Shown piece by piece: positions 39,814-53,293 of a DNA stretch of 64,000 nt. Every line of letters begins with the position of its first letter. The first letter of the stretch is position 1. The DNA comes from a virus: the IMG/VR virus record IMGVR_UViG_3300023082_000002, positions 1-64,000 of that record; one strand, 5' to 3'. The notes beneath the pieces were generated by a model. The model made no database searches, had not been told where the DNA came from, and worked only from the letters and a program-made list of their open reading frames with translations. Both the position numbers and the translations under genes were made by a program.

Positions 39814-39971
39814 GAGAATGTCACGTAATCTGACGTGTCGATCCCGATGACATTCGACCCCTTGCGGCCTGCAAACTCCTTGTCGAACTCGGCCTTGTCG
39901 GTCGTGTCCGTCATGAGAATCCAGCTCCCGTCATCGGGATTCTGAACAAGCATCAGGTAGTGGGTTTCCAT
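39810..39971 (-). CDS. 53-residue hypothetical protein after the integrase
   Basis: ATG overlaps the integrase stop by one base. Strand-rich small protein (HYLMLVQNPDDGSWILM) with a charged middle. Coupled to the integrase, so produced together with it; could be a small accessory or simply the next gene in the operon. Confidence 0.6.
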   Translation of the reverse strand: METHYLMLVQNPDDGSWILMTDTTDKAEFDKEFAGRKGSNVIGIDTSDYVTFS

Positions 39972-40807
39972 TAGAACTGAACCGCCTCTCGCAGCGCCGC
40001 TTCATTGACGCCTGTGTAGATTTCTGTCGTGGTGACGTTGCCGTGACCCAGGAGCTCCTGGACCAGTCGAATGTTGCGCGTTCTCTCAAACACCAGGGTG
40101 GCGAATGTGTGACGCATGTCGTGTGATGCGATCGGTCGTGACAGCTTTGCACGCTCGCCCAGTGCTGTGATGACCCGACGGGCTGGTCGATCAGAGTAGG
40201 TAATGAGACAGGAGTCATTACCTCTAAGGATCGCCTCGGCGTAGCACTCCGAGATAGCGGCCCATGCTTCATCGGACACAGGTACGATGCGGGTCTTGTC
40301 ACCCTTGCCGCGAATCGAAACGGTCATATCGTGCAGATTGAACCACGAAGGACGAGTGTCACGTGCCTCACTGATGCGGCATCCGATAAGTCCGGTCAGG
40401 CTAACAAGGGCCTTTTGCTCGGGGTTGGACGCCGCATCAATCATACGAAGCAAACCATCCTTGCCCTCGCTGATCGGGTGTGCGATGCCACGAGCGGTGT
40501 GCGGCGGCATGTAGTCATCGAGGATCAGCGGGTCACCCGCCCACTTCGCCCACACCTTGACCGAAGTGAGGCGGCGTCCAGTTGTCTTGGGCGAGAGGAG
40601 GGGTCGACTCAGGTTCAGCCACTTCTGTGCTGCTTCCTCCAGGGACTCCATCGGAATCGCCGTCTTCCCCGACTCCGCTAGAAGAATCAGAAGGTCCGAC
40701 CGATACGCCTTGCATGTATGCTTCGACAGCCCCCTTCCTAAACACCACGCGTGGAACTGCTCGATAGACTCTGTCGAAAGAGTCGTCGCCCGCTGCAAAC
40801 GCTTCAT
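39971..40807 (-). CDS. int: Tyrosine site-specific recombinase (integrase)
   Basis: 278 residues. A core-binding SAM-like domain lies at about 10-95 (QFHAWCLGRGLSKHTCKAYRSD). The catalytic domain has all six active-site positions: Arg144 (GCRISEA), Lys168 (GKGDK), His229 and Arg232 (HDMRHTF), His255 (LGHGN) and Tyr264 (TEIYTG). No N-terminal arm-binding domain is present, so it resembles XerC/D-type minimal recombinases. It may integrate the phage or resolve multimers. Its first 275 bases are also read in another phase by the upstream gene. No attP core was identified in the flanks. Confidence 0.9.
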   Translation of the reverse strand: MKRLQRATTLSTESIEQFHAWCLGRGLSKHTCKAYRSDLLILLAESGKTAIPMESLEEAAQKWLNLSRPLLSPKTTGRRLTSVKVWAKWAGDPLILDDYMPPHTARGIAHPISEGKDGLLRMIDAASNPEQKALVSLTGLIGCRISEARDTRPSWFNLHDMTVSIRGKGDKTRIVPVSDEAWAAISECYAEAILRGNDSCLITYSDRPARRVITALGERAKLSRPIASHDMRHTFATLVFERTRNIRLVQELLGHGNVTTTEIYTGVNEAALREAVQF

Positions 40808-44554: not shown

Positions 44555-47473
44555 TTATCGGTCCGTCAATTTTTTCTCAAGGTGATGAATGACCTTGACC
44601 AGGTCTTCGTCTCCGTCGACTCGAACGGTATCCATCCCGAACTCTTCAGGCGAACTGGTTCGGATACCGACGCCCATGAGGGTGATGTTCTGCTGCCTAC
44701 ACTTGGCGATCTGAGTCTGAAGAACTTCGAGCTCCTCGTCATAGTTTGCCGCAGGCATTGCGCCGTCAGTGTAGTACAGAATGATCTTGTCGGTTGCCGG
44801 AGTCCGCTCAACAGCCTTGCGATAGTACTCTAGCGTATGACCGTCGACGTTCGCCTGAAGTGGTCCAATGTTCTTCAGAGATTCGCGAGCACGGTCATCC
44901 CATTGATCCTGAAATGACTTGATCTCATATATTTCCATGCTGAGATTCTCGTACGTACCATCTCCACTGTCGAGTGCACTATGTGCATACACAGCGAAGT
45001 CAATACCAACTCGTGAACACAGTTCGGCCTGAGCCGTGACCGCCCGTTTCGCGAGCTTCATATTGCGAGCACCAGTGAATGACATGCTGGCCGAGATATC
45101 AACCCCGATGACGACGGCGTACGACTTCTTGCCGGGCAAGATAGTCTTCTTGAACATGCGTGGATCGTTGAATGGAGCGCGCTTGGCGAGCGACCCACCC
45201 CGAATCTTTCCCGACTTCAAGTTCTTCTGATGACGAGCACGCTTGTTATCATCGAAGACACGACGCGTAACCTGCAATGCTTCACCTAGCAAAGACTCAT
45301 CAGGCTCAAAGTCACCACGCAAGCCGATGTTGCGAAGGGACTTTTCGCTGTAAAGAACCTTGTCCCCATTAGTGCCACGCCATGCGTTGTCAGAGTCAGG
45401 GACATCGGTGTATCGGTGAACATTGACACCGACAATGTTCACAGGAGCTGTATCAAAGTACAGGCCTTGCTCGATCGCAACTTCCATTGCGGCCTCTGCG
45501 GTACCATCGTCCACTGATTCGCCAAGCGAATACTCCGCAGACTCCTCGGCGTGATGGTCGCCGTGATGACCAGTCACTGCCTCCACGTACTGCGGAACAG
45601 AATCAGCGGAGCCATAATCTATTTCCGCTTCCAATTCCTGGCCCCAAGGATCGCTGCCTGTGTCGGATGAGCTATCCTCCATGTCATTCGGCTTGTCGGT
45701 GCCGAGCTCATTACTTCGTGTCTCAGATGCTGGGTCAGCATCGTCAGACCGATCCGCCTCCAGGGAATCCTCGCCGCCGACTGCTCCCTGATCTTCGGGC
45801 GCCTCGTCAGTGGCGAGTCCACTATCTGTGTCAGTGTCACCCCCAGACCCGTCGGGCTCTCGTGGATCACCGTAACCACTTTCAGTCTGGAACTCTTGTG
45901 AATCATCCCCACTGCTACGACTGTCTTCGTCATCTAGTCCTCCTTCTTCCTCCGAGCTGTCTGTCTCGCCAGTTCCTGATCCGCCGGACTCATCTTCGAT
46001 ACCTTCTGGATCGACCTCCGCTGCTGACTCTTCGGTCGACGAATCTTCCTCAGTCGCGTCACTGGTTACTCCCCTGTTAGCTTCCGCTGTGTCTCCAGGT
46101 ACGCTCTCGCCTGCTCCCTCTGGATTCGGTGACGATCCTCCGTTGTCAGGTTGATCGTCACCGGACTCGCTGTCGTCTTCGGGTACTCCTGTGCTGTCGC
46201 CGGAGCCAGAGGGAGAACCGTCATCATCTGTGTCAGGCTGTTCGTCCGTCTCGCCTGCGCCGCTGTCAACATTCGACGCATCGCTCGGAGTGTCGTTCTC
46301 TGGAAAGGCCTCCTCAGTCTCAGGGGAATCCTCGGCATCATCAGACTGAGCATCCGATAAATCTGAATGGTCAGACGATCCAGAATCGCCTGCCACCTCC
46401 CCTGTATCCTCGCCCTTGCCAGCGCCTTGGTCATCGTCAGCTTCATCCTCGGTATCTCCTTGTTCTTGGTCGGAAGATTCTTCCGATGATTCGTCATTGT
46501 CCTGACTATCGGACTCTTTGTCCGGTTCAGTTCTATCCTGCTTATCTTCGGACTCCTGGTCCTGCGGCTCAGGCTGCGGCTCGTCATCCTCTGTAATGTC
46601 GTCGGCCTCAGCAAAGAAGCCGAGCTCTTTGCCGCGCATCAAGGCATCGAAGGACAGGTTGAACACGTCACTCACCGAGCGTGCAGTCTTGGCACCTTCG
46701 GCAGTAGCAGTAAGCTCCGAGTCATAGCATGCCGCGACCACCTCGGGTGCAAAGAAGTCGTTGACCTCCCAGCGGGACGCTACTGCATACAGAGCAACAA
46801 TCAGTTGAGCATTGAGGGGCGCGTCGATCCATCGCGCAACCGAGCCGTCTGCCTGCTCGACACCCTCGGTAAAAGCTCGGCGTGCTCTGACCTCTCGCAT
46901 CTTGCGTGTACCCTTGCGAGCCAAGAACATGCGCTCGTCGATGCGAACGTCCTCAAGAATGTTCATGATCTGACCCAGGTACTCTGAAATAGAGTTAGCC
47001 AGTAGTATGAACGAATCGCCACCCTGCTTCCCCTGGTACTTCTCCATGCGCCTGTTCATCTTAGCAACAAAGTCGTCACCCTTGAATGCGACAGCAGCGG
47101 AGAGGGCCTTTGCTCGATCCTTGTCTGTGAAGGGAGCGAACGAGTGGTAAGCAATGTGTGCGATCTCGTGATAGATGCCAGAGAGAATATCTTCACGCAC
47201 TCTACACGCAGGGCATAGCTGCTGAAGGGTGACGTCATCTCTCTTGTCACACACGCTGCGGTCATGCTTTGTGTCGTCGGCTAGTGACAACGGGGGACGG
47301 TAGAAGATCGTCGTGCCGTCCGTGTGGGGAAACCCTGCGGTCACCTGGATGCGGACGGCGGGCTCCCCCGTAACGGCGCGAGCGTAGGAGGTGAGGCCGG
47401 GCTGCATCGTGCGAAAAGCTGCCAGAGCTTTTTGGGCTCTAGCAACATGGTCGCGGTCAACTGTCTGACTCAT
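44555..47473 (-). CDS. CobT-like VWA protein with N-terminal HExxH domain
   Basis: 972 residues. Residues 1-290 contain HEIAH (102-106), a zinc metallopeptidase motif, followed by NILEDVRIDE near 172, the companion acidic helix of this family. CPAC at 87-90 adds a likely metal site. Residues about 293-650 are an extremely acidic Asp/Glu/Ser linker. The C-terminal 190 residues are a von Willebrand A domain with MIDAS D-I-S-A-S (Asp792) and YTDG (Asp903). The layout resembles CobT of cobaltochelatase and MoxR-partner VWA proteins. Its ATPase partner is encoded at 49,966. Substrate unknown; chelatase activity is not implied. Confidence 0.8.
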   Translation of the reverse strand: MSQTVDRDHVARAQKALAAFRTMQPGLTSYARAVTGEPAVRIQVTAGFPHTDGTTIFYRPPLSLADDTKHDRSVCDKRDDVTLQQLCPACRVREDILSGIYHEIAHIAYHSFAPFTDKDRAKALSAAVAFKGDDFVAKMNRRMEKYQGKQGGDSFILLANSISEYLGQIMNILEDVRIDERMFLARKGTRKMREVRARRAFTEGVEQADGSVARWIDAPLNAQLIVALYAVASRWEVNDFFAPEVVAACYDSELTATAEGAKTARSVSDVFNLSFDALMRGKELGFFAEADDITEDDEPQPEPQDQESEDKQDRTEPDKESDSQDNDESSEESSDQEQGDTEDEADDDQGAGKGEDTGEVAGDSGSSDHSDLSDAQSDDAEDSPETEEAFPENDTPSDASNVDSGAGETDEQPDTDDDGSPSGSGDSTGVPEDDSESGDDQPDNGGSSPNPEGAGESVPGDTAEANRGVTSDATEEDSSTEESAAEVDPEGIEDESGGSGTGETDSSEEEGGLDDEDSRSSGDDSQEFQTESGYGDPREPDGSGGDTDTDSGLATDEAPEDQGAVGGEDSLEADRSDDADPASETRSNELGTDKPNDMEDSSSDTGSDPWGQELEAEIDYGSADSVPQYVEAVTGHHGDHHAEESAEYSLGESVDDGTAEAAMEVAIEQGLYFDTAPVNIVGVNVHRYTDVPDSDNAWRGTNGDKVLYSEKSLRNIGLRGDFEPDESLLGEALQVTRRVFDDNKRARHQKNLKSGKIRGGSLAKRAPFNDPRMFKKTILPGKKSYAVVIGVDISASMSFTGARNMKLAKRAVTAQAELCSRVGIDFAVYAHSALDSGDGTYENLSMEIYEIKSFQDQWDDRARESLKNIGPLQANVDGHTLEYYRKAVERTPATDKIILYYTDGAMPAANYDEELEVLQTQIAKCRQQNITLMGVGIRTSSPEEFGMDTVRVDGDEDLVKVIHHLEKKLTDR

Positions 47474-47666
47474 CCGACCTCACTCCTCTCAGCAGCATCT
47501 CTAGTCCGGGCATGTATCTCTGTCGACTCATTGCCAACTGGTAGCAGGTCGGATCATCGTCAGTGTCGTGACAATACCACTTCTCACCTGACGAATCTGT
47601 GATCGAAGCAAACCCAGCAGCCGGGTCACGATCACAGTCAGCACAGGGCTCTGGTGCGACGGACAC
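47457..47666 (-). CDS. 69-residue Cys-rich protein
   Basis: CADCDRD near the start and YCHDTDDDPTC in the middle form a probable zinc site. Overlaps the VWA gene by 17 bases and follows the 335-residue gene by one base, so the three are cotranslated. Function unknown. Confidence 0.65.
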   Translation of the reverse strand: MSVAPEPCADCDRDPAAGFASITDSSGEKWYCHDTDDDPTCYQLAMSRQRYMPGLEMLLRGVRSDESDS

Positions 47667-48673
47667 TAGTCGTTCTTCCAGAACGGATTCGGGATGGTCT
47701 CAGTTGGCTGCTCGTCCAGCGGTGCGACAGCCTCGTCGAGGGCGGTCTTCTCAATCTCGGTCTCTTCGGCTTCTTCCTGCTGGGCCGCACTCATGCGACG
47801 ATGCAGCTCTTTACGACTGATTCCTTCGACACGCATGATCTCCTGCTCGTTGAGCTCGATGACCTCCTCCCAGTCCTTGAAATTCGAGTGGACGCCGAAC
47901 ATCGGAGCGTCGGGATTACCCTCCTCGTCGGCAGCAACCTCGACCTGAATCACGCCGGTCTCAACGCCGACCTGGATCGCCTCACTGATGTCCACGAGTG
48001 AAGGCTGCGGCTCCTCGTCGGCATCTTGCATGCTGTACGAAGGGACGTGGTACATCTTGATGGGGGACGCCTCGTACATATCACGAGCTTTGTCGAGAAC
48101 GATCTGCGGCGTGAGCTCGGACTGACTGTAGTTCTCCACGTCCTTGAGGTCTTCGATCGCCTGAGACATGAGGTCCTTGAGCTGAAACTCGTTAAGCTCG
48201 TCGAAGGTTTTCACCCTGGGCGCGTCGCCGAAGATTACGTCCATGACAGTGTCGAGTGCCTTGTTGCTCTTCGGGGCAGCCATGAGGGCCATTGCCTTGG
48301 CGATCGTCTGACGCTCGGGCTCGGTGTGACGACCCTCGTACCACTCGTCGGGCTGGTCCTCGGGAAGGATGACCATGCTGCGGTTGCGGAGCGCATCGAG
48401 TACACCCTCGATCGCGGTGGTCTTGAGGCTCTCGCTGTGACCCAGCCACGGTGCCAGCTGCTCAGCACCGACGTCTGCGGAGCGGTGGTAAATCATCCAC
48501 TCCTTCATGAACGACGTGTCGAAGTCGTTGAACTCGGGGAGCGGCTCACCCGTGAAGTCGTGACCGTCATCGTTCATCCAGACGACGGTGAACAGGTCGA
48601 AGCCTTCACGCTCCTTGAACTCGCGTGCGACCGTGTCGAAGATGGGTGTGGCTGTAGGTCCGTACATTGTCAT
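47666..48673 (-). CDS. Hypothetical protein between VWA and AAA+ genes, 335 residues
   Basis: AAGGAGACA lies before ATG, with a second ATG two codons later. The N-terminal 170 residues look globular (FDLFTVVWMNDDGHDFTGE, DWYEGRH-like turns). A helical middle and an acidic C-terminal coiled coil follow (KELHRRMSAAQQEEAEETEIEK). No motif recognised. Position within the cluster suggests a substrate or adaptor of the AAA+/VWA pair. Confidence 0.6.
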   Translation of the reverse strand: MTMYGPTATPIFDTVAREFKEREGFDLFTVVWMNDDGHDFTGEPLPEFNDFDTSFMKEWMIYHRSADVGAEQLAPWLGHSESLKTTAIEGVLDALRNRSMVILPEDQPDEWYEGRHTEPERQTIAKAMALMAAPKSNKALDTVMDVIFGDAPRVKTFDELNEFQLKDLMSQAIEDLKDVENYSQSELTPQIVLDKARDMYEASPIKMYHVPSYSMQDADEEPQPSLVDISEAIQVGVETGVIQVEVAADEEGNPDAPMFGVHSNFKDWEEVIELNEQEIMRVEGISRKELHRRMSAAQQEEAEETEIEKTALDEAVAPLDEQPTETIPNPFWKND

Positions 48674-48685
48674 TGTCTCCTTGGT

Positions 48686-49009
48686 TTAAGGGTGTACCCA
48701 TGACTCGCCGATGAGCCATGCTGCGAGAAATCTGATCTTGCTTGGCGGGTCGCCCGCTTCTTCTTCCTCGACCTGATAGAAGATGTCAATCGACTCAACC
48801 ATCTTAGATACGAGGGTGTCATAATCAGGATACACCGCCTGTGTCGAGACTGCAAGGGCTTGGGCAAGGCAATTATTGCCACAGTAATGAGTCGTTACGC
48901 CGGACCTTGTAAGGGTAAGCCATGGTACGATACTCGTGCTTGGTGTAAGCGCCGAAAGCATGAGCTGATTCTCACAGCCCGGACCATCGCATCGCAAGTG
49001 CTGACTCAT
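48686..49009 (-). CDS. Cys-rich hypothetical protein, 107 residues
   Basis: Start at ATG 49009, overlapping the preceding stop (ATGA). CDGPGCENQL and YCGNNCLAQ form a four-Cys arrangement typical of small treble-clef zinc domains. The second half is helical and acidic. Part of the AAA+/VWA gene cluster. Confidence 0.65.
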   Translation of the reverse strand: MSQHLRCDGPGCENQLMLSALTPSTSIVPWLTLTRSGVTTHYCGNNCLAQALAVSTQAVYPDYDTLVSKMVESIDIFYQVEEEEAGDPPSKIRFLAAWLIGESWVHP

Positions 49010-49323
49010 CGGACTACCTTGACCCCCTGCTTCGGCACGCACGTGTCAACCATGCCGTAGTACCCGACCTCGCGAAGCAGCTCAAACAGCCACTGAGGCA
49101 CGGGTCGATACTGCTCATAGCCGTACAGCTTGAACGTAGCCGAAGTCGAACCGGGCACTAGTCTGCCGTAGTTGCGACCGAACAACTGAACCTTGCCTCG
49201 ATTCCCGAAGTCCGTAATCTCAGCCTTGTATGGCTCGAATTCTGGGCCGAGCGACGATATCACCCTGGGTGCCCCTTTGATTGAGAATACGGTTACAGTC
49301 TTGCGTGCTGATACCTCAATCAT
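49006..49323 (-). CDS. Hypothetical protein, 105 residues
   Basis: ATG 49323 overlaps the preceding stop by four bases. Strand-rich (KTVTVFSIKGAPRVISS, then KVQLFGRNYGRLV) with a C-terminal helix. Possibly a small beta-barrel; no motif. Coupled to both neighbours. Confidence 0.6.
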   Translation of the reverse strand: MIEVSARKTVTVFSIKGAPRVISSLGPEFEPYKAEITDFGNRGKVQLFGRNYGRLVPGSTSATFKLYGYEQYRPVPQWLFELLREVGYYGMVDTCVPKQGVKVVR

Positions 49324-49613
49324 ACCTGCACCTCCACTACTAGAGTCCCAGCTACTGTCATGGTCGCATGGACGAATGCAAAGGCGGCAACGTCGTACGG
49401 AACTGGTCCCCATCTGCGCTCGTACTCCTTAATCAGAGCCATCTCCAGCATGCGATGTGCCTGCTGGCGCTCGATACGCATGCGGCGCTCGAAGGTCTTG
49501 ACTCGACCGTGATTGGCCGGACGCAACGCTGCTGACATGGTGACCGCACGCTCGCGCTTGAGTCCACTGCTGTACGTGTAGTCCTCGTGTCCCGGCTTGT
49601 CTAGGATTGGCAT
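49320..49613 (-). CDS. Hypothetical protein, 97 residues
   Basis: Start at ATG 49613, two bases after the preceding stop. Basic N-terminal half with a long Arg-rich helix (RVKTFERRMRIERQQAHRML) and a hydrophobic C-terminal segment (YDVAAFAFVHATMTVAGTLVV), possibly a membrane or packing helix. No family. Confidence 0.55.
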   Translation of the reverse strand: MPILDKPGHEDYTYSSGLKRERAVTMSAALRPANHGRVKTFERRMRIERQQAHRMLEMALIKEYERRWGPVPYDVAAFAFVHATMTVAGTLVVEVQV

Positions 49614-49615
49614 GG

Positions 49616-49804
49616 TTAATCCTCCGGCTTCGGAAAGGGTGTCTTCTTCTTCCACTCTTCATACCAGTCAGGTATGTGTTCGGGACACCACGAATCACCA
49701 TTCTTTTGAAAGAACCAGCCAGACTTGATGTGTGAAAACTTGTTAGAGGGGATAGTCTCCTCGCAGTCAGGATTGCTGCAACGAGTATCTACTCCGTACG
49801 ACAT
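49616..49804 (-). CDS. 62-residue Cys/His protein
   Basis: RCSNPDCEE and WCPEHIPDW make a CxxxC/CxxH site similar to small zinc domains, followed by a Lys/Glu-rich end (EEWKKKTPFPK). Lies one base from its upstream neighbour. Function unknown. Confidence 0.65.
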   Translation of the reverse strand: MSYGVDTRCSNPDCEETIPSNKFSHIKSGWFFQKNGDSWCPEHIPDWYEEWKKKTPFPKPED

Positions 49805-49805
49805 G

Positions 49806-49964
49806 TCACTCAGCCCTCTTTGTCACTGTGACCGGACCCGCCAGCTCTTCGGCACGTCGATCAAGCGCCTCGGCCTCAGCCTTCTTGCGCTTGCGATACT
49901 CGGGATCACGGTAACGATTTGCCTGGGTGTCCTTGTTGCGACCTGAGTCAGGGTTGCCAGCCAT
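49806..49964 (-). CDS. 52-residue basic helical protein
   Basis: ATG one base after the AAA+ stop. Charged single helix (PEYRKRKKAEAEALDRRAEEL) with Arg/Lys-rich N-terminus. Coupled to the ATPase gene, so it may be a small adaptor. No motif. Confidence 0.6.
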   Translation of the reverse strand: MAGNPDSGRNKDTQANRYRDPEYRKRKKAEAEALDRRAEELAGPVTVTKRAE

Positions 49965-49965
49965 G

Positions 49966-51501
49966 TCACAGCTCCACGTTCGATCGAACGATGTCAAGGA
50001 CCTGGTCAGCCTGCTTCGGCTCGAGGTAGTCAGCGGCAGCCATGCGATACGCGGTGAGGAAGTCGAACCATCGCAACGCTCTTGCGACCTTGATCTGCGG
50101 GCGGATAGCCCAACTGATCTGCAGACTGCCTGACTGAATGTTGGTTCTGATGTCATCAGCAATCGCCATGAGTGCATCCATCTTGTCACGCGGAATATCC
50201 CAGCCGTCGTGCTTGCAGCGGGTCTCGATGATCTCACGCTCCAGCTTATCGTCGGGCAGTCCGACACTGAAGTGCATGAGACGGTTGGCATCGGCGTCAC
50301 CGATCATCTGAGTACCGATGTTGTTCATATCCCAGGCAGGGTTCATCGCGAGACCTAGGTACGCGTCACTGTGGCGTGTGATCCGCTGACCCTTTGCCAT
50401 GTCGAGAACCAGCTGCTTGCTGTTATCGGTGAGCGGGCGGATGAACTGCCACACGTCAGCGGGTGCAGTGTTGGGCTCGTCGAGGATGATGACACACGGC
50501 TTACCCCAGGCACGAGGGAGGCGACCGAACTCGAACACGGTCTCGCCATTCTCATACAGCCACTTGCCAGCGATGTCATCGAGCTCGGTCGATCCGGTGA
50601 ACGACAGACGCTCGAATGGCAGGCACATCAGCCATGCCATGAACCTGAAGAACTCGGTCTTGCCCGTACCGGCCTGACCCCAAAACGCTGGGGTCTCGTC
50701 GAGCTCTGTCCATAGCACGACCACCTTGTAGAGATAGAAGGCGTGATCGACATAGTCCTCGGGGTGCTCGTCGTCGCCGGTCCGTGGAATCTTGGCCTGC
50801 TCCTCGGGCGAGAAGTGATTCAGGTCATAGATGGGAAGCCAGACCGAGTTGTCGGACATCGGGTCTTTGATCTCCCGCCATGCCCTGATGCCGTGAGCGG
50901 CGTCCTCGGCAGACACTTCCTTATCCGTCTCGTACTCGGTCGGATCAACAAAGTTAGCCTTGGCCTTGGCGTGAGCTGCGACCGGATCACCAGCAACGGT
51001 GAAGTTCTCAGCGTACTCGGGAATGAAAGTCATGCCCGCCATGTCGGGGCGAGGCGTACCGAACGAACGGTAATCGCAGTTACGAGCCTCGAGTGTGGTG
51101 CGATTACCGAGGATCAACTTACCCTGCGCAGCACACATGCCTGCACCCCAGCCCGGACCCTTAACAACAACTTCGAGGTCGATGTAGTTACTGCAGTTGA
51201 GGCAGGTACGAACAGCCTCGGGCATGTTACCAGCACCGGGCAGTGTAGACTGGGGGTCGGGCAGCATCACCTGAAAGTCTGCGGTCTTCCAGTCGGGCGT
51301 GATAGGAGCAGGCTTGCCATACGAATCACAGTTCTTCGCGAACGTCTTCGATATCTCGGTAACCTCCGGAAGAGAAGACTTGATGCGACCGAGGGGCTTA
51401 CCGAACCGAGCACAGACTGGAACACCGATGCTCTTGTTAAAGAACTTTGTTGCCTGCTGGGTCGTGAGCATCGAGGGGCAGTCTAGGCATGACTGAGACA
51501 T
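49966..51501 (-). CDS. MoxR/CobS-like AAA+ ATPase with duplicated N-terminal four-Cys modules
   Basis: 511 residues. Residues 260-511 are a MoxR-type AAA+ module: Walker A GQAGTGKT (275-282), a SFTGSTELDDIAGK pore-loop-like region, Walker B CVIILDEPN (336-344) and sensor DANRLMHFSVGL. The N-terminal 150 residues hold two copies of a Cys pattern: 5, 8, 30, 58 and 100, 103, 123, 142. These could bind zinc or iron-sulfur clusters. MoxR ATPases work with VWA proteins to remodel or load metal into partners; the VWA gene is 2.5 kb away in the same operon. CAGGAGAG precedes ATG. Confidence 0.85.
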   Translation of the reverse strand: MSQSCLDCPSMLTTQQATKFFNKSIGVPVCARFGKPLGRIKSSLPEVTEISKTFAKNCDSYGKPAPITPDWKTADFQVMLPDPQSTLPGAGNMPEAVRTCLNCSNYIDLEVVVKGPGWGAGMCAAQGKLILGNRTTLEARNCDYRSFGTPRPDMAGMTFIPEYAENFTVAGDPVAAHAKAKANFVDPTEYETDKEVSAEDAAHGIRAWREIKDPMSDNSVWLPIYDLNHFSPEEQAKIPRTGDDEHPEDYVDHAFYLYKVVVLWTELDETPAFWGQAGTGKTEFFRFMAWLMCLPFERLSFTGSTELDDIAGKWLYENGETVFEFGRLPRAWGKPCVIILDEPNTAPADVWQFIRPLTDNSKQLVLDMAKGQRITRHSDAYLGLAMNPAWDMNNIGTQMIGDADANRLMHFSVGLPDDKLEREIIETRCKHDGWDIPRDKMDALMAIADDIRTNIQSGSLQISWAIRPQIKVARALRWFDFLTAYRMAAADYLEPKQADQVLDIVRSNVEL

Positions 51502-52156: not shown

Positions 52157-52633
52157 TTACTTGAGGTCAGAGTTGCACTGCATAGCAGCCTTATCGAGGT
52201 TGCGCTCGACAGTAAGGATGGTGTCTACTGTCTCGTCATAAGCCTCAGAGATGTCGTTGAGTTTGTTAGACCCAGCGATCATACCATTGTTGTCGTCGCG
52301 GGCGTCGGCCTTGCGAATGTCTGAGACGATCACCTGCACATCGTCGGGAGCGGATGCGAGGTCACGCGCAAGGTTAGACAGTACCTCTGTAAGCTGCGTC
52401 ATCTGCACGCACGAATCAGGGTAATCAACCTTGGTCTTTGTGACCACCTTTGTCTCGACCTTGGGTGCCGAGGTAGTAGGTCCCTGGTTAATCGGCTTAA
52501 CCTTCTCCTCTTCGGGAGAATTGAGCGAGCCAAGGATATAGAGAGCGACCATGACTCCGACTACCCACGCGATGATCTTGTGGGACCGCTTAGCGTTGTA
52601 CCACTTCTTGAAGTTAGCTCGGTGCTTGCTCAT
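52157..52633 (-). CDS. Single-pass membrane protein, 158 residues
   Basis: Start at ATG 52633, overlapping the preceding stop by four bases. A basic N-terminus (KHRANFKKWYNAKRSHK) and one transmembrane helix (about 23-38) precede an extracellular Pro/Thr/Lys region and a helical domain with two Cys (CVQMT and QCNSD) that may pair outside the cell. It looks like an early-expressed envelope protein. No family recognised. Confidence 0.65.
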   Translation of the reverse strand: MSKHRANFKKWYNAKRSHKIIAWVVGVMVALYILGSLNSPEEEKVKPINQGPTTSAPKVETKVVTKTKVDYPDSCVQMTQLTEVLSNLARDLASAPDDVQVIVSDIRKADARDDNNGMIAGSNKLNDISEAYDETVDTILTVERNLDKAAMQCNSDLK

Positions 52634-53079
52634 CCTTCGTACGGCCCCTCGGTCTCGTCGATCGTGGCAACGTACTCGTCGTCCTTCTTCTCGCACTCCG
52701 GGCCGATGCCGTAATAGCGCGAACGAGGATCGGTCAGCTCCTTGCCGCACGAGCAGCAACGACCGATGACGTTGGCGTACTCCCGCTGATACTTCACGGG
52801 GTTCAGGGCAGCCATGAGGAGGGCGGGCTCGGCGAGGAGGTTGAACCAGTACATCTGCCCGTCAGGGTAGACGATGAACGCGATACGGTACTCTTCACCG
52901 TGCTGGGTCTGCACCTTGAGGCAGTCCTTGAACCGTCCGTAGGTGGGTCGCGTCACCCGAATGAAGACATAGTCCTCGTCATCACTGTCCCGGCAGGCGA
53001 AGCGTGCGCTCGGGATGGTGTCGAGAATCATGGCTGGAATCATGGTCCGCGTACGGTTGGCAGGCAGTTCAGTATTCAT
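52630..53079 (-). CDS. DUF6011-like Cys protein
   Basis: 149 residues from ATG 53079 with GAGGAGAAG upstream. The C-terminal segment GRCCSCGKELTDPRSRYYGIGPEC matches the DUF6011-type C-x2-C ... G-I-G-P-x-C zinc signature seen in many actinophage proteins. Upstream is a beta-rich domain (DEDYVFIRVTRPTYGRFKD). DUF6011 proteins have no established function. A 13-bp hairpin lies in its 5' leader. Confidence 0.7.
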   Translation of the reverse strand: MNTELPANRTRTMIPAMILDTIPSARFACRDSDDEDYVFIRVTRPTYGRFKDCLKVQTQHGEEYRIAFIVYPDGQMYWFNLLAEPALLMAALNPVKYQREYANVIGRCCSCGKELTDPRSRYYGIGPECEKKDDEYVATIDETEGPYEG

Positions 53080-53109
53080 ATTCTTCTCCTCGGTGTAGAG
53101 GGTTAGGGT

Positions 53110-53142
53110 GTCGGCTCGTGTACTTCCCATACACGAGCCGAC
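53110..53142 (-). terminator. Hairpin in the leader of the DUF6011 gene
   Basis: GTCGGCTCGTGTA (53110-53122) pairs perfectly with 53130-53142 around a 7-base loop. It lies 31 bases upstream of the ATG on the - strand, in a 277-base gap that also holds the terminator at 53294-53330. It may be a second terminator stage or an attenuator of the AAA+/VWA operon. No promoter is evident between the two hairpins. Confidence 0.5.
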
Positions 53143-53293
53143 GCAACGGCGTTCAGTCCATTGCACAGAGCAGCCTATGTCTGCTGCTCATGACTCGGCA
53201 CACAGGTTCTCGGAGCCATGATTCTGGCGAGGGACAATGACGAACCTCGCTACATGACCAGCGCGCCAGCGCTCCCGTGTGCCGAGACATGAG

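Follow-up and report, generated by a model that had tools for sequence, protein, structure and literature searches.

The window analysed here is a 64,000-nucleotide part of the virus record IMGVR_UViG_3300023082_000002 (76,093 bases), whose kin, by tblastn matches of the gene pair discussed below, are phages of Gordonia, Tsukamurella and Rhodococcus. The window encodes a MoxR-type AAA+ ATPase and a VWA protein of the kind called CobS and CobT in cells. A 2021 study took viral "cobST" genes for helpers of a cobaltochelatase and called the peptidase label a mistake (PMC8651126). Marine T4-like cyanophages have cobS among their core genes (PMC3037559), and cobS and cobT are listed as auxiliary metabolic genes in many virome papers. 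This raises the question of whether the viral pair takes part in vitamin B12 synthesis or acts on proteins in another way.

Rather than making B12, the module probably acts on proteins by remodelling or cutting them, since the HExxH motif is kept nearly without exception in the viral copies and all cellular B12 enzymes examined are without it. Judged from sequence, and with a probability of about 0.58, the pair would be a two-component, ATP-driven protein-remodelling AAA+/VWA machine with an active N-terminal gluzincin-like metallopeptidase. The gene family is already known; it is the functional reading that is new. Peptidase labels are already in the databases (PHROG 459), and the novelty therefore lies in the test across lineages and not in the word 'peptidase'.

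The gene pair and its distribution

Both open reading frames are intact and lie 2,492 nt apart, with the VWA gene downstream of the ATPase gene (Table 1). This agrees with an earlier note on this DNA, which placed a MoxR-type ATPase and a MIDAS-bearing VWA protein about 2.5 kb apart on the same strand. Each protein matches a dedicated PHROG family, and the pair is therefore not a chance reading. Encoding PHROGs 5298 and 5424 together, the window carries the same two-gene module as the rest of the viral cobST cluster (PHROGs 5298/5424, 459/249 and 1576). Two features set the window family apart from other viral cobST, a pair of N-terminal Cys4 modules in the ATPase and a His/Cys cluster (H70/C75/C87/C90) in the VWA protein; both had been overlooked in the earlier note.

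Table 1. Positions of the features discussed, in window coordinates unless a related locus (L) is named
Feature	Position	Strand	Remark
CobT-like VWA protein, 972 aa	44555-47473	-	PHROG 5298, E=9e-162
N-terminal domain aa 1-290, predicted gluzincin-like	46604-47473	-	AlphaFold pLDDT mostly 80-96
His/Cys cluster H70-C75-C87-C90	47204-47266	-	restricted to window family
HEIAH motif aa 102-106, predicted helix 88-108	47156-47170	-	H102/E103/H106 34/34
EDVRID motif aa 174-179, predicted helix 166-185	46937-46954	-	E174 33/34, D175 34/34
Acidic low-complexity linker aa 290-655	45509-46606	-	predicted mostly disordered
VWA domain aa 725-972	44558-45301	-	nearest solved folds Rea1/midasin MIDAS, NorD
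MIDAS DISAS aa 792-796 (+ D877, D903)	45086-45100	-	34/34 invariant
Intervening ORFs (335 aa + about six small)	47457-49964	-	judged outside module
MoxR-type AAA+ ATPase, 511 aa	49966-51501	-	PHROG 5424, E=3e-180
First Cys4 module C5, C8, C30, C58 (C5-x2-C8-x21-C30-x27-C58)	51328-51489	-	nearly invariant
Second Cys4 module C100, C103, C123, C142 (C100-x2-C103-x19-C123-x18-C142)	51076-51204	-	nearly invariant
Walker A region aa 275-282	50656-50679	-	invariant
Walker B Asp-Glu aa 341-342	50476-50481	-	invariant
DUF7192 proteins	L188:5834-6679; L189:5761-6606; L190:2215-3060		follow CobS-like ATPase

The two genes travel together. By tblastn, 116 phage records match the VWA protein and 116 match the ATPase, many of them annotated as CobT-like or AAA-ATPase, and the two lists, compared by genus counts, split identically (Gordonia 105, Tsukamurella 6, Rhodococcus 5). 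The VWA gene is present in 30/30 IMG/VR contigs found via the ATPase, and the ATPase gene in 21/21 found via the VWA protein. These scans used the AAA+ and VWA motifs as query and left HExxH unused. They yielded 36 distinct contigs, in one of which the genes sit at opposite ends. The constant co-occurrence looked for by the earlier note is thus borne out, and neither gene was found alone within the family. In many isolates the genes abut or overlap; a gap of up to 2.3 kb is seen in Rhodococcus phage Mbo2 and in many relatives from metagenomes. Phage Mbo2 also has an annotated SaV-like (AbiV sensitivity) gene on the same arm as the pair (L006:17328-18191).

An anti-phage defence system was considered and rejected, as the PADLOC-DB defence models gave no match to the VWA, AAA+ or 335-aa proteins.

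The intervening genes

Between the pair lie a gene for a 335-aa protein and about six small open reading frames, three or four of which contain CxxC-type Cys clusters, in keeping with the three or more Cys-rich small genes first noticed. The earlier note took the whole for a nine-gene phage system, with the Cys-rich proteins as substrates or cofactors of the pair, a role that could be extended to the 335-aa protein. The common strand and tight spacing in the window fit this proposal, but conservation makes it highly improbable, and it was rejected on that ground. In 61 related loci, no counterpart of the intervening genes was seen but for one 69-aa reading frame in one locus (L011). In many relatives the pair is adjacent, and among 50,697 phage records nothing matches the 335-aa protein. 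Thus, of the three genes proposed for a check of co-occurrence, the AAA+ and VWA genes stay together and the 335-aa gene drops out, and the role given to the small Cys proteins falls with their absence from related loci. The functional unit is accordingly two genes, not nine.

Further out, PHROGs 6708, 6032, 6646 and 5406 are kept in 39-46 loci and look like general neighbours in these phages. The PHROG 6032 member in the window (52630-53166) is a 178-aa protein with a zinc-finger-like motif, CCSCGKELTDPRSRYYGIGPEC, and is found upstream of the ATPase in 44 loci. A tyrosine integrase (39971-40807; PHROG 1, E 3e-32) suggests a temperate phage.

Domain structure of the AAA+ ATPase

The Walker A GxxGxGKT, Walker B DE and sensor Asn residues are all invariant in the AAA+ family, and PF07728 scores 40.1 bits against a cut-off of 22. 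An AlphaFold2 model built from 34 homologues has a mean pLDDT of 91, with NorQ and CbbQ as its best Foldseek matches (E about 1e-16). The protein thus combines an AAA_5/MoxR-like P-loop, both Walker motifs and a NorQ/CbbQ-like fold, the features of a MoxR-type AAA+. When the family profile is compared with solved structures, midasin ranks best (2.7e-15), and CbbQ and NorQ also rank above CobS. The second Cys4 module overlaps a match to the rubredoxin-like PknG_rubred model that, at 16.6 bits, is under the cut-off.

In the ATPase tree, the window family and cellular CobS fall into groups of their own, as does every other viral type, all with good support; the tree is unrooted and several of its branches are long, which makes the deep joins unsafe.

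Domain structure of the VWA protein

AlphaFold2 predicts confident N- and C-terminal domains flanking a disordered linker. The features listed by the earlier note are all found: HEIAH, NILEDVRIDE (aa 171-180), the MIDAS motif, and, where an acidic linker of roughly 350 residues had been described, a stretch with 35% D+E and 3% K+R. The linker varies from 52 to 389 aa among relatives, and its exact length is therefore unconserved.

The C-terminal domain has a VWA fold with DxSxS and two further Asp, which makes this a VWA/MIDAS protein; D792, S794, S796, D877 and D903 are each kept in 34/34 homologues. Foldseek and VIA match lists of the model are filled by VWA-domain matches. The top VIA-align match is the Rea1 MIDAS domain (Z 21.5, rmsd 2.4, 203 aligned), and in a sequence search the solved cobaltochelatase CobT 9uka ranks ahead of NorD.

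Of major interest is the N-terminal domain. Seven of its positions are invariant in 34 sequences (C75, C90, H102, E103, H106, D175 and Q223), with E174 and R177 next. The pattern is that of a gluzincin motif: a conserved HExxH with its catalytic Glu and a downstream Glu ligand. The metallopeptidase-type domain proposed earlier thus holds at the level of sequence, with the HExxH residues in 34/34; loss of the MIDAS or HExxH residues in close homologues, named as a ground for doubt, was not seen, both sites being kept throughout. In the predicted model, the HExxH helix and the E174 helix, both modelled with confidence, appear to have the gluzincin layout, in which E103 would be the general base and E174 a candidate third zinc ligand. 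A site that only bound structural zinc would not need E103, and the presence of this residue in 34/34 therefore points to more than a structural role. The H70/C75/C87/C90 cluster, specific to the window family, is itself a probable structural zinc site.

Three zincin families are among the Pfam matches of the N-domain, namely WLM (0.0032), SprT-like (0.023) and M48 (0.032); all are sub-threshold and stand among other chance-level matches, and the N-domain sequence profile has no match in the PDB.

Conservation of the HExxH site in other viruses

The cyanophage 'peptidase' (PHROG 459), the phage-plasmid CobT (PHROG 1576; SSU5, Rhizobium, Aeromonas and Acinetobacter elements) and the VWA protein of halovirus HVTV-1 have the same domain order as the window family, and in each, HExxH is followed by an ED..[IV][DE]-like motif. 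In an 18-sequence N-domain alignment of three viral lineages, the invariant columns are solely H102, E103, H106, E174 and D175, while identity over the rest of the domain drops to 11-45%. The window family and the phage-plasmid type are joined by hhalign at 97.1% (E 5e-11) over this domain.

Among distinct viral proteins, HExxH is present in 34/34 of the window family, in 79/79 of the cyanophage type, a tally biased by the HE inside the scan pattern, and in 67/70 of the phage-plasmid type, where the count is partly biased. It is also present in HVTV-1. The three losses are two Nickievirus-like proteins, which read DSEISK and DSEVSK, and one that reads HEVAR. The Nickievirus-like CobT (L067:3756-5837; L302; L312) has lost HExxH and kept both the MIDAS and the pair, and is a natural pseudo-peptidase suited to comparison; the motif is thus dispensable in some viruses. 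A literature search of limited reach found no earlier report of HExxH in viral CobT.

Comparison with CobT and CobS of bacteria

Cellular CobS-CobT shares the domain order of the viral pair (N-domain, acidic linker and CobT-type VWA, together with an AAA+ partner), but differs in that CobS forms its own strongly supported group in the AAA+ tree and that CobT is without the site described above. From a CobS motif scan, 80 bacterial loci were obtained, and 54 CobT were read. In none of the 54 does the homologous domain contain HExxH. Readable sites resemble RGLGDSMALR, and the ED motif reads like EQARVEAIG (DSMAL...EQARVE). CobT 9uka follows this pattern; a HEPAH upstream in one cellular stop-to-stop reading frame is unrelated to the site. 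Viruses conserve the HExxH/ED site and cellular CobT does not have these residues, which favours the peptidase label over the reading of PMC8651126.

The homology of the N-domains is reached stepwise. Comparison of the phage-plasmid type with cellular CobT by hhalign gives 92.7% (E 4e-7), and PF06213 matches the SSU5 CobT at 2e-37. Compared directly with cellular CobT, the window family gives a weak 19.7%, so that its homology rests on the phage-plasmid intermediate. The cellular set in these comparisons consisted of 46 N-domain extracts, of which one (L128c) was wrongly cut; this extract served as the template row on display, and its letters carry no weight.

The proposal that viral CobST joins a host CobN, inserts cobalt and raises cobalamin (PMC8651126) has the VWA domain in its favour. 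Although the window protein scores 18.3 bits against the 21-bit cut-off of CobT_C (PF11775), 30/34 relatives match this model at E<=0.1, several above the cut-off and the best at 2.8e-14, and 9uka is matched at E=9e-11. Viral cobST is also reported from viruses of eight host orders.

What defines a CobT is that it works with CobN on hydrogenobyrinate a,c-diamide. No CobN was found in the whole 76-kb record; it may be supplied by the host, and Mycobacteriales such as M. tuberculosis encode CobN. The specific models also argue against a chelatase role. The window protein has no match at E<=0.01 to NCBIfam TIGR01651 CobT (cut-off 759), to which a cellular CobT control scores 1040.6 bits, nor does the ATPase match TIGR01650 CobS (cut-off 558). 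With the AAA+ profile preferring midasin, CbbQ and NorQ to CobS, and the conserved viral site missing from every cellular CobT read, help to a cobaltochelatase is improbable. The doubt about such a role voiced in the earlier note is supported.

A possible mode of action

The best Foldseek matches for the window AAA+ and VWA are the NorQ-NorD and CbbQ-CbbO pairs. NorD resembles the viral protein in its make-up, with a disordered linker between an N-domain and a VWA domain with MIDAS. In NorQ-NorD, the pore of the AAA+ hexamer receives a finger of the VWA domain, and the MIDAS metal binds to an acidic residue on the surface of the target, to which the effect of ATP hydrolysis is passed on; target specificity is tentatively ascribed to the N-domain, which hangs on its disordered linker (PMC9976466). 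NorD differs in that its N-domain is credited with specificity and not with peptidase activity, and its target is nitric oxide reductase. Rea1/midasin offers the MIDAS domain nearest to the window VWA, and midasin is nearest to the AAA+ profile, but it is without a zincin-like domain. Rea1 is a single giant chain in which the AAA+ modules and MIDAS are fused.

These likenesses allow another reading, namely that the pair is purely a MoxR-VWA chaperone, as are NorQD, RavA-ViaA and Rea1, and serves the remodelling or maturation of some complex of the phage or its host, and that the HExxH domain binds metal for docking and is without peptidase activity. The nearest folds (NorQ/CbbQ and NorD/Rea1), the specificity role proposed for the NorD N-domain (PMC9976466) and the absence of HExxH from Nickievirus-type proteins and cellular CobT are all in line with it. 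However, E103 and E174-D175 stay invariant or nearly so while the rest of the domain diverges, and docking would not need a catalytic Glu. A docking-only domain is therefore disfavoured, and the pure chaperone is unlikely, if less so than the chelatase helper.

For the remodelling metallopeptidase, we infer hexamer formation, zinc binding, proteolysis and the order of these events as follows. By analogy with NorQ-NorD, the AAA+ hexamer would have its pore plugged by the VWA domain, whose MIDAS metal would bind an acidic residue of the target protein, and ATP hydrolysis by the AAA+ motor would pull on or open the target. The zincin-like N-domain, tethered by the flexible acidic linker, could then cleave the target once the motor had opened it. 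Cellular CobT would be built alike, but with its peptidase site dead and with CobN as the partner to which it is adapted; it is probably a catalytically dead relative of the proposed viral metallopeptidase.

A broader and more tentative proposal, somewhat short of an even chance, is that of a pan-viral AAA+/VWA metallopeptidase, perhaps acting at the replisome or against nucleoprotein roadblocks, with cellular CobT as a pseudo-peptidase that arose from this fold. That the target is a nucleoprotein or linked to the replisome is speculation drawn from neighbourhoods in other viral lineages and not from the window. The pair is flanked by gp46/47-type and gp45/44-type genes in Syn19 and Ochrobactrum phage OC, and has DNA ligase or polymerase III alpha genes as neighbours in phage-plasmids. 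The weak WLM and SprT-like matches of the N-domain recall, again speculatively, replication-linked proteases.

Two observations on these other lineages may be added. CobT/CobS pairs are found in or near replication-recombination clusters of T4-like cyanophages and SSU5-type phage-plasmids (L186, L191, L192, L063-L067). In halovirus HVTV-1, a SprT-like gene (L187:1941-2657) lies upstream of the gene for the CobS-like ATPase, at a distance of about 2 kb.

Implications

CobS-like ATPases match 819 phage records. In Staphylococcus and Listeria phages and Gordonia phage Octobien14, the gene after that of the CobS-like ATPase encodes a 281-aa DUF7192 protein in place of CobT. Weak matches in BFVD link DUF7192 models to the window VWA model (E 0.007-0.06), and on this basis these proteins may represent a pared-down VWA partner.

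Cultivable relatives, the Gordonia phages grown on G. terrae 3612, encode the pair, so that the question lends itself to a direct test. If viral CobT is a metallopeptidase, inferences on vitamin B12 metabolism drawn from viromes would need revision. The pair would then represent a very widespread viral protein machine, and the origin of the CobT N-domain would be explained as that of a dead peptidase.
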